Below, in pieces: positions 23,285 through 32,726 of a DNA stretch of 41,617 bases. The notes beneath the pieces are model-generated. The model searched no databases. It was given only the letters and a program-made list of their open reading frames with translations, and was not told the DNA's origin. The DNA is from Candidatus Heimdallarchaeota archaeon (GTDB lineage Archaea > Asgardarchaeota > Heimdallarchaeia > Heimdallarchaeales > Heimdallarchaeaceae). Position numbers and translations under genes: made by a program. Within the stretch, counting starts at the first letter, position 1. Each line of letters opens with the position of its first letter. Where the stretch lies: assembly GCA_030611665.1 (NCBI GenBank), contig JAUWPI010000004.1, positions 1-41,617 of the forward strand. Direction: 5' to 3'.

Positions 23285-24325
23285 ATGAATAAAGTTGGTA
23301 TTGTTTCATTTGGCTCTTATATTCCACGTTATAGAATAAAAATAGAGGAGATTGCAAAAGTATGGGATGAAGATCCCATCGAAATAAAAGCTCAATCACA
23401 GATAAATAGCAAATCTGTTCCAGGACCAGATGAAGATGTAGCTACAATGGCTGTAGAATCTGCTAGAAATGCAATTAGCAGATGGAAAGGTAAAGAAAAA
23501 GATTTAGGGGCAATTTATGTAGGAAGCGAATCTCATCCCTATGTAGTTAAACCTACAGCAACCATTGTTGCAGCAGCTTTAGATGTAGAAAAATCTCTAA
23601 CAGCTGCTGATTTAGAGTTCGCATGCAAAGCTGGAACTGCAGGAATGCAGATGTGCTTTGGTTTAGTGAAATCAAAAATGATTTCGCTAGGGCTGGCAAT
23701 AGGAGCTGATAGTAGTCAAGGAAGACCAAGGGATCCATTGGAATATACGGTAGGAGCAGGAAGTGCAGCTTTTCTTATAGGTTCAGAGAACATTATAGCG
23801 GAACTGGAAGGAACCTATTCAGTAACTACTGATATGCCCGATTTTTGGAGAAGAGAAGGAGCAGTTTATCCTTCACATGGAGTTAGATTTACAGGACAAC
23901 CTGCTTATTTCAAACATACAATTGATTCTTCAAAAGGCTTAATGGAAGAATTAGGGACAAAAACCTCTGATTACCAACATGTTATTTTCCATCAACCTAA
24001 CGCTAAATTTCCTCAAGCTGTTGCTAGAATGTTAGGCTTTTCGAAAGAACAAGTTGAATTGGGTTTAATTTGCAAACAGATGGGGAATGCTTATTCAGCC
24101 TCTTCAATCTTAGGATTTGCTAATGTTCTTAACCACGCTAATCCTGGAGATCAAATACTTCTAACATCTTATGGAAGTGGAGCAGGAAGCGATTCATTTT
24201 CTTTTACAATTACAGAAGCAATAGACAATATTCGTCCATATAAATATGACACCCAATATTATCTAAACCAGTGTGAGTATATAGAATATGGAAAATATGT
24301 AAGGTTTAAGGGGATTCTGAGGTGA
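23285..24325 (+). CDS. Archaeal hydroxymethylglutaryl-CoA synthase
   Basis: 'GSESHPYVVKPTA', 'DLEFACKAGTAGMQ' (Cys), 'FHQPNAKFPQAVARMLGF' (His), 'YGSGAGSDSFSF'. Confidence 0.95.
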   Translation: MNKVGIVSFGSYIPRYRIKIEEIAKVWDEDPIEIKAQSQINSKSVPGPDEDVATMAVESARNAISRWKGKEKDLGAIYVGSESHPYVVKPTATIVAAALDVEKSLTAADLEFACKAGTAGMQMCFGLVKSKMISLGLAIGADSSQGRPRDPLEYTVGAGSAAFLIGSENIIAELEGTYSVTTDMPDFWRREGAVYPSHGVRFTGQPAYFKHTIDSSKGLMEELGTKTSDYQHVIFHQPNAKFPQAVARMLGFSKEQVELGLICKQMGNAYSASSILGFANVLNHANPGDQILLTSYGSGAGSDSFSFTITEAIDNIRPYKYDTQYYLNQCEYIEYGKYVRFKGILR

Positions 24326-24329
24326 TCAA

Positions 24330-25511
24330 ATGGTAAAACGTAATGTGTTTATAATTGGTACAGGAATAACAGGTTTCGGAGAAAATTATGAGATTAGTGC
24401 AGGTAAACTTGCTTCAAAAGCACTAACACGTGCAATTGAGAACACTAAAATCACGAAAGAATCAGTACAAAGTACATTTATTGGATCATTGGTTTCTGGC
24501 TCAAATTCACAACCATCCATCGGAGCCAATTGTTTGAGAGAAAGTCACATAAAAACCCCTCATGTTCGAATTGAAGCAGGAAACGCTAGTGGAGCGGCAG
24601 CATTTCATCAAGCATATCTTGGAATATTGAGCGGAGTCTTTGATTGTATTGCAGTTGTAGGTGTTGAAAAACTGAGTGATTTTGTTAATGCGGGGATAGT
24701 AGAAAGAATCCTAAGTTCAACCATTGATTATCAATGGGAATTTGAGATGGGTGCAACATTAACAAGCCTTTATGCAATATTAACCAAAGCTCATATGAAG
24801 GAATTTCAAACTACTAAAGAACAACTCGCAGCAGTTCCAGTAAAAAATCACAAGAATGGAGTTAACAACCCCAATGCTCAATTCAGAAAGGAGATATCAA
24901 TTGAGAGATTTCTTAATGCAAAAAGAATAGCTGAGCCCATAGGAAAATTTGATCCAGCCACTTATTGTGACGGCAGTGCTTCTGTTATTTTAGCTTCAGA
25001 AAAGTTCATACTTCAAAATAAAGATATCAGCAGCAAGGTTCCAATTTTAGGATCTAGCTACGCTTCAGACAGTTTAGCGCTACATCATCGTAAATTGTTA
25101 ACTGAACTAAACGCTTCAAAAACAGCTGCGGCTACAGCTTACAAAATGGCAGATATTAAGCCAGTAGATATCAATGTTGCTGAAGTTCATGACTCATACC
25201 CTATCGGTGAAATCCTAGCTATTGAAGATCTTGGTTTCTTTAAGAAAGGTGAGGGAGGAAAAGCTGTCGAAGAAGGTTTAACTGAGCAAAATGGAAAAGT
25301 GAGTATAAATACAAGTGGTGGATTAAAAGCGAGAGGAGACCCATTTGGTGCTACTGGTATCGCTCAGATTATTGAGATAGTAGAACAAATGCGTAGAGAA
25401 GCTGGTAAACGTCAAGTTGATTCTGTAAACTATGGATTAACACAAAATGTAATGGGTACAGGAGCCCTAACTTATGTAAATATTCTGGGAGAAGAAGAGG
25501 TGAAAAAATAG
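24330..25511 (+). CDS. Thiolase family protein (archaeal SCP-x type) with substituted catalytic motifs
   Basis: 'GTTKEQLAAVPVKNHKNGVNNPNAQFRKEIS'-type family pattern ('TTKEQLAAVPVKNHKNGVNNPNAQFRKEIS' in the ORF), 'INTSGGLKARGDPFGATGIAQI', located between HMGS and DUF35. Confidence 0.9.
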   Translation: MVKRNVFIIGTGITGFGENYEISAGKLASKALTRAIENTKITKESVQSTFIGSLVSGSNSQPSIGANCLRESHIKTPHVRIEAGNASGAAAFHQAYLGILSGVFDCIAVVGVEKLSDFVNAGIVERILSSTIDYQWEFEMGATLTSLYAILTKAHMKEFQTTKEQLAAVPVKNHKNGVNNPNAQFRKEISIERFLNAKRIAEPIGKFDPATYCDGSASVILASEKFILQNKDISSKVPILGSSYASDSLALHHRKLLTELNASKTAAATAYKMADIKPVDINVAEVHDSYPIGEILAIEDLGFFKKGEGGKAVEEGLTEQNGKVSINTSGGLKARGDPFGATGIAQIIEIVEQMRREAGKRQVDSVNYGLTQNVMGTGALTYVNILGEEEVKK

Positions 25512-25900
25512 TGGAACCACCCAAAATTTGGAGAGAAAAACGAGGCAAATACTTAGCAATGGGAGTTGAATGCTCAGACTGTATGATCAAACAGTTTCCT
25601 TTTACAGAGAAATGTTCAGCGTGTGGCAGCGAAAATGTGAAAGAGTACAAACTTGCTACAACAGGAAAAGTTCTACATTTCTCAACTGTTACTCAAACTA
25701 CAGATGAAATGATGGGCAGCACCCCTTACTTAATTGCTATAATAGAGCTGGATGATGGTATTAAAGTTACAGGACAAATTGTTGACTGCAATCTTAACGA
25801 AGCAAAGGAAGGCATGGATGTAAGGATGGTTTTCCGAGTTCTAGCTAGAAATGGTTCGGAAGGTTTAATCCGTTATGGATACAAGTTTGCACCAATTTAG
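25511..25900 (+). CDS. DUF35 Zn-ribbon/OB-fold protein (HMGS/thiolase partner)
   Basis: 'CSDCMIKQFPFTEKCSACGSENVKEYKLATTGKVLHFSTV'; immediately downstream of the thiolase gene; GTG start. Confidence 0.92.
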   Translation: MEPPKIWREKRGKYLAMGVECSDCMIKQFPFTEKCSACGSENVKEYKLATTGKVLHFSTVTQTTDEMMGSTPYLIAIIELDDGIKVTGQIVDCNLNEAKEGMDVRMVFRVLARNGSEGLIRYGYKFAPI

Positions 25901-31544: not shown

Positions 31545-32726
31545 CTAATATTGCTTTATTACATTTACTATTTCATCGTATGATGCATCTGTTTTTAGTC
31601 CTTGAGGATCAAATATAGTTCTAGAAACTAGAAATCCCTTAGATCTTAATGAATCAATGATTTGGTTTAATGATATCCCTTCTTTCTTACAGAAACGGAG
31701 AATAAACGGAATATAGTAAAAGAAAGGAGGGGATTCAATTTCATCCAAGATTAAACTTAATACTTTCTCAATCTTCTTCTCAAGATGTAATGTAAACTGT
31801 CCAATATCCTTTTTCATTTGTTTAATAAACTCAACTTCATAGAGATTCCCTAGCCATAACGGTCCTGCTTTTTCTAACTTTTCTGAACAGTTAGTGCATG
31901 AAGTGTCCACTAAATCTTTGGATAATTCTACTGTTTCTAGAAAGGAACATTTCTTACAGAAATATACAAAACCCAGTTTTTTGTGCTGCTGGTTAGCAAC
32001 TTCCTTACTGTCTTTTACCTTAACTTTAACTCTTAGAAAATGTTCATGATTGTAACAAAGAATAGGTTCCACTGCCAAACCTAATCTCCCAGCACTAATT
32101 ATAATATTATAAATCAAAATTCGTAATGCTACTTCGTGGCAAAGAAAATGTCGAGTTGGTATGGCATTGTAGATTCTAATACATGATTCTGGGAATTTAC
32201 CACATAATACCTGTAAATCTGTTGCTGTTGCAAAAAGATATCCTTCATTTATTCGTAAAGCTCTAAGTGATTCTTCTATATACTCAATTGGTGATCCAAA
32301 AGGATCCAAATCAATAATATGAGTAGTATCTTTCTTCTTTGGCAAGGAATCAAGAATATTGATTGCATTCGAGTGTTTAATTTCCATTTTTTCATCAAAT
32401 TTCAAGTTATTTGAGTTCCGTGTAATAATATTTACAGCTATAGGATTAATATCTCCAGCAACAACTTTTTCAACAGAATCTTGAGGTAATTCATTTATGA
32501 TTCGGTAGCTTCGAATACCTGTTCCTGCAAAGGGATCTAGGAAACAAATTCTTTTCATTTCTCTTTTAATGATTGAAGATAGAGACAGCAGTGTGAGATC
32601 TCTATTGAGAACCATTTTTGGATTATAGAAAACTGAAGCGTCATAGATTCGATTTGCATCTTTGTATATTGAAAAAGTAGTACTACCCTCTGTTACTTCT
32701 TCCCACATATCTTCAGAAATTTCCAT
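31545..32726 (-). CDS. trm1: tRNA (guanine26-N2)-dimethyltransferase Trm1
   Basis: 'VTEGSTTFSI', 'DPFAGTGIRSYRI', 'IIDLDPFGSPIEYIEESLRAL', CxxC-type Zn motif. Confidence 0.93.
   Translation of the reverse strand: MEISEDMWEEVTEGSTTFSIYKDANRIYDASVFYNPKMVLNRDLTLLSLSSIIKREMKRICFLDPFAGTGIRSYRIINELPQDSVEKVVAGDINPIAVNIITRNSNNLKFDEKMEIKHSNAINILDSLPKKKDTTHIIDLDPFGSPIEYIEESLRALRINEGYLFATATDLQVLCGKFPESCIRIYNAIPTRHFLCHEVALRILIYNIIISAGRLGLAVEPILCYNHEHFLRVKVKVKDSKEVANQQHKKLGFVYFCKKCSFLETVELSKDLVDTSCTNCSEKLEKAGPLWLGNLYEVEFIKQMKKDIGQFTLHLEKKIEKVLSLILDEIESPPFFYYIPFILRFCKKEGISLNQIIDSLRSKGFLVSRTIFDPQGLKTDASYDEIVNVIKQY

Follow-up and report, generated by a model that had tools for sequence, protein, structure and literature searches.

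Channelling between HMG-CoA synthase (HMGS) and a thiolase opens the archaeal mevalonate pathway, with HMGS pulling the unfavourable thiolase step forward. A locus in the genome of a Candidatus Heimdallarchaeota archaeon raises the question of what such a thiolase does once the residues that define its chemistry are missing. The window analysed here is a stretch of 41,617 nt, contig C119 of a 2.74-Mb assembly (G000) that is 84% complete. Three genes lie head to tail on its forward strand: HMGS (23285–24325), a 393-aa thiolase-like protein (24330–25511) and a DUF35/OB-fold zinc-ribbon protein (25511–25900; Pfam PF01796, 51 bits). A gap of 4 bases separates the first two, and the DUF35 start overlaps the thiolase stop by 1 base. 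HMGS scores well above the NCBIfam cut-offs (PRK04262, 515.5 bits against 244; TIGR00748, 483.8 against 353). For comparison we used incomplete metagenome-assembled genomes (MAGs), comprising the 23 genomes of the window's own family (f1; 21 of genus g1 plus G021 and G022), further families within its order (f2–f4) and class (f5–f7), and other Asgard archaea. The closest named relatives, MAGs likewise labelled Candidatus Heimdallarchaeota, carry a thiolase-like protein 95% identical to that of the window.

The fold of the central protein is that of an SCP-x-type thiolase (Pfam PF22691, 143 bits; PF00108, 71 bits). Among NCBIfam models it lies near the archaeal acetyl-CoA acetyltransferases but under their cut-offs (AcCoTHIOL_METTL, 358.5 against 600; PRK06064, 412.6 against 420). 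Its best sequence matches in the PDB are 7YVY and 6ESQ, and these, together with its motifs, place it with the SCP-x/archaeal acetoacetyl-CoA thiolases. An AlphaFold model (pLDDT 79, pTM 0.86; weak loops at residues 124–141, 175–187 and 336–338) likewise has the 6ESQ thiolase as its top Foldseek match (TM 0.87–0.88, 35–36% identity). The 6ESQ enzyme belongs to the thiolase/HMGS/DUF35 complex of Methanothermococcus thermolithotrophicus (6ESQ, 6ET9), with which the window protein shares its fold, its gene partners and the histidine of the HD motif.

What the two proteins do not share is the rest of the active site. Alignment with 6ESQ and 7YVY reveals that the nucleophile motif ACASG has become GNASG and the GH(A/P) motif GDP, such that the nucleophilic Cys85 and the GHP-equivalent histidine of the M. 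thermolithotrophicus enzyme correspond to Asn85 (codon AAC, 24582–24584) and Asp337 (GAC, 25338–25340) in the window protein, and no alternative cysteine or histidine aligns at either position. The original prediction that this thiolase lacks both its catalytic cysteine and its catalytic histidine is thus borne out, and the loss extends across the family: among the 21 f1 members carrying the gene, position 85 is Asn in 19 and Thr in two, and Asp337 is invariant. The prediction had also held that the neighbouring proteins remain intact, and indeed the HMGS motifs EFACKAG, FHQPN and GSESHP, which contribute Cys, His and Glu, are conserved throughout f1, as are both CxxC motifs of the DUF35 protein. 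His287 of the EVHD motif (CAT, 25188–25190) is kept in 21 of 21. The cysteine of the HDCF motif has also been replaced (Ser289), a change seen in several Asgard homologues that retain the nucleophile; a Gln/His372 change considered as an additional lesion was dismissed, as Gln occurs in intact homologues. The missing catalytic residues and their conservation are firm observations, and from established thiolase chemistry it is very likely that thiolase activity has been lost: the former acetoacetyl-CoA thiolase would no longer be able to form the acyl-cysteine intermediate.

A working thiolase that employs another nucleophile is very improbable. The protein has three cysteines, at positions 68, 106 and 213, and Cys213 (24966–24968) is the obvious candidate, being fixed in all 21 f1 members and replaced by Ser in the intact homologues of family f6. 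However, in the alignment this residue falls on a strand, away from the nucleophile motif, and 7YVY has a cysteine there too with its catalytic cysteine intact; Cys213 is not conserved in families f3 and f4; and the GHP histidine and HDCF cysteine are gone as well.

Conservation of the locus argues that the altered protein is retained. The intact HMGS–thiolase–DUF35 triplet occurs in 21 of 23 f1 genomes, and in the two that lack the thiolase-like gene (G009 and G019) HMGS is likewise missing from the assembly. The f1 proteins are 62–95% identical to that of the window (n = 21), and the gene is under purifying selection, with pairwise omega values of about 0.09–0.15; the protein is therefore needed. 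The ratio of thiolase to HMGS divergence is 1.42 in f1 versus 0.98 in f6, where the ACASG and GHPVG motifs are intact, which fits a loss of catalytic constraint with retention of structural constraint. The window derives from a metagenome assembly, and an artefact of sequencing or assembly might be suspected, but the same residues recur within intact reading frames in 21 independent species-level assemblies; this conservation excludes chance or read error, and the explanation, of vanishingly small probability, is already refuted.

Loss of the cysteine is not confined to this family. In f3, f4 and f7, too, the HMGS-linked thiolase is without it, with E, G or D in its place, and in f3 and f4 the GHP histidine is mostly gone (A or Y). 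In f10, f14, f19 and one copy from f18 the cysteine is missing and GHP is retained. The cysteine persists in f9, f16 and f17, and the HMGS-linked thiolase of f6 retains both residues. The Cys-less Heimdall group of f1, f3 and f4 is recovered with support of 96/91, joined weakly by f7, and the Cys state requires at least four changes on the Asgard tree; Asgard archaea have lost the nucleophilic cysteine at least four times. A literature search found no published description of this catalytic-residue loss. Two further variants were seen in the course of this survey. The f10 proteins (L213, L214) have a more degraded active site, with GESSG at the nucleophile motif and the HD-motif histidine also lost (EIFD) beside a retained GHP, and in G108 of f24 (L253) HMGS is followed by a highly divergent relative of thiolases (213 bits) with DCGTN and KGRGDV motifs.

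The original prediction listed different chemistry among the consequences. Might the fold have acquired a new reaction, such as aldol cleavage, decarboxylation or acyl-CoA hydrolysis, using Asn85, His287 and Asp337? The near fixation of Asn/Thr85 and Asp337 in 21 species would be in keeping with this, and thiolase-fold proteins without the nucleophilic cysteine do perform other chemistry: the steroid aldolases Ltp2 and Sal, which pair with the DUF35 proteins ChsH2 and Shy, respectively, and TbSLP, which shows very weak malonyl-CoA decarboxylation (PMC12329534). Unlike the window protein, these carry YDHF, YDCY or YDCF motifs, act on other substrates and have no HMGS partner; the aldolase motif YDHF/YDCY is absent here, residues 287–290 reading HDSY. 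Sister families moreover differ in their replacements (N/T, E, G, D), so that they share no new active site. The strict linkage to HMGS, whose substrate the old reaction made, has also persisted, and we consider a new reaction unlikely. A further archaeal relative with a non-cysteine nucleophile position (SGSG), ST0096 of Sulfolobus tokodaii (4YZO; 32% identity in the fold alignment), differs in having kept GHP.

The original prediction offered a structural role as one way to account for a dead thiolase, and this is the option best supported by the synteny, the purifying selection, the varied replacements and the intact HMGS. In the characterised archaeal complex, CoA binds where all three proteins meet, and the acetoacetyl chain passes between the site of the thiolase and that of HMGS (PMC12329534, PMC6392133). 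Because CoA sits at this three-protein interface, a dead thiolase can still be needed by HMGS. By analogy, the thiolase-like subunit may have been kept as a non-catalytic member of the HMGS–thiolase–DUF35 complex that holds the assembly together, and it probably still helps to bind CoA or acetoacetyl-CoA for HMGS. There is precedent for such an arrangement in the Friedel-Crafts acylase PhlACB (5M3K), which likewise assembles subunits resembling HMGS, thiolase and DUF35 into a single complex, including one catalytically dead partner that a functional complex requires: its HMGS-like subunit, PhlA, has lost Cys and Glu, and only the complete operon is active (PMC6392133). PhlACB is nevertheless a mirror image of the window's complex, in that its HMGS-like subunit is dead and its thiolase is active; the equivalents of the PhlC-type residues Cys88 and His347 are Asn and Asp in the window protein. 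A structural role is probable, and we regard the locus as encoding a conserved pseudo-thiolase within a known type of complex. Against this stands the observation that Asn/Thr85 and Asp337 are more conserved within f1 than residues of a freely drifting dead site need be.

If the HMGS-linked protein is inactive, acetoacetyl-CoA might be supplied by an active thiolase encoded elsewhere, as the original prediction also suggested. This holds for sister lineages, as unlinked thiolases with both Cys and His are present in f3, f4, f10, f14 and f19, and for G022 within f1, the last of which also counts against the combined reading favoured below; none was found in g1. There, a whole-protein search recovered no copy other than the HMGS-linked one in G000 and 20 further genomes, most of the latter 78–92% complete, and a search with PF00108 gave no second strong hit among the matches listed. 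A few genomes have lower-ranking second PF00108 matches, of which the one read, in G000, is a KS domain. The other PF00108 matches in G000 are this KS domain, HMGS itself, a match inside a 1988-aa frame, and a 33-aa scrap. A 393-aa reading frame in the window (31545–32726) was also considered and rejected, as an NCBIfam search identifies it as Trm1. The KS-domain match was rejected because it is part of a PfaA-like synthase; the reading frame in question (contig C50, L176 681–6497) encodes a type I polyketide/fatty-acid synthase of more than 1410 aa with FabK-like, KS and AT domains, follows an acyl-CoA carboxylase carboxyltransferase gene and is open at the contig end. In G022, a reading frame resembling a type II topoisomerase B subunit (L190 14108–17917) bears, as judged by eye, an apparent intein-like insertion.

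That an intact thiolase supplies acetoacetyl-CoA in g1 too, and was either unassembled or missed, would be compatible with the 84% completeness of the window's genome, with the intact copies in G022 and the sister families, and with the scrap itself, which resembles the N-terminus of a type I/II thiolase and lies at the end of contig C154 (L177 4853–4954) of the window's own assembly. This scrap, however, meets a stop after 33 codons and runs antisense to, and overlaps, a truncated NamA-like flavoenzyme reading frame, so that it is probably a chimera or contaminant, and the lack of a second hit in 20 further g1 genomes makes a missed thiolase improbable.

The gene inventories point to a different source. 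Every f1 genome (23/23) encodes exactly one crotonase, 22 of 23 encode one acyl-CoA dehydrogenase, and nearly all encode a full-length 3-hydroxybutyryl-CoA dehydrogenase (Hbd), G021 having weak hits only. All three proteins best match short-chain types, and in those f1 members that were read their catalytic motifs are as expected; their genes are not adjacent to HMGS. In f6, with its active-type HMGS-linked thiolase, all three enzymes are absent, bar weak partial hits. This complementary pattern is our main argument that supply has moved from condensation to oxidation; as a correlation, it covers few families, and these are related by descent. HMGR is present in g1 (in the window's own genome as two contig-end pieces). 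In G023 of family f2, whose assembly lacks HMGS and thiolase, the Hbd and crotonase genes adjoin (L208 2262–3910) and there is a single acyl-CoA dehydrogenase.

Other routes were considered and set aside: an NphT7-like synthase, as g1 yields no second KAS III-like hit; acetoacetate activation by a type I CoA-transferase, of which f1 has none; and a decarboxylating glutaryl-CoA dehydrogenase as a specific source of crotonyl-CoA, the single acyl-CoA dehydrogenase being about equally similar to short-chain enzymes and to the Desulfococcus-type model GlutCoADH_Des. Truncated beta-oxidation is the most likely source of acetoacetyl-CoA in g1, and a testable one: a cascade from acyl-CoA dehydrogenase through crotonase to Hbd, fed by butyryl-CoA or another short acyl-CoA, would yield acetoacetyl-CoA that HMGS could use directly. 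The weak Hbd hits of G021, the distance of the three genes from HMGS and the incompleteness of the MAGs weigh against this account. On balance we favour a combined explanation in which the pseudo-thiolase serves the HMGS complex as a structural subunit that binds CoA, and acetoacetyl-CoA comes from truncated beta-oxidation. A stronger version is plausible but more tentative, namely that g1 makes its isoprenoid precursors without any thiolase, obtaining acetoacetyl-CoA only by short-chain acyl-CoA oxidation, with the former thiolase as a non-catalytic acetoacetyl-CoA docking subunit of HMGS, a switch that would parallel the repeated cysteine losses among Asgard archaea.

If this is correct, maintenance of the complex without thiolase chemistry would mean that the assembly serves for more than channelling, and that the mevalonate pathway can be rewired at its entry, in a host lineage close to eukaryotes. 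Annotation pipelines would call the thiolase step present in these genomes even though the residues are gone. The repeated losses of the cysteine would in turn provide natural replicates for testing what the thiolase-like subunit contributes to HMGS.
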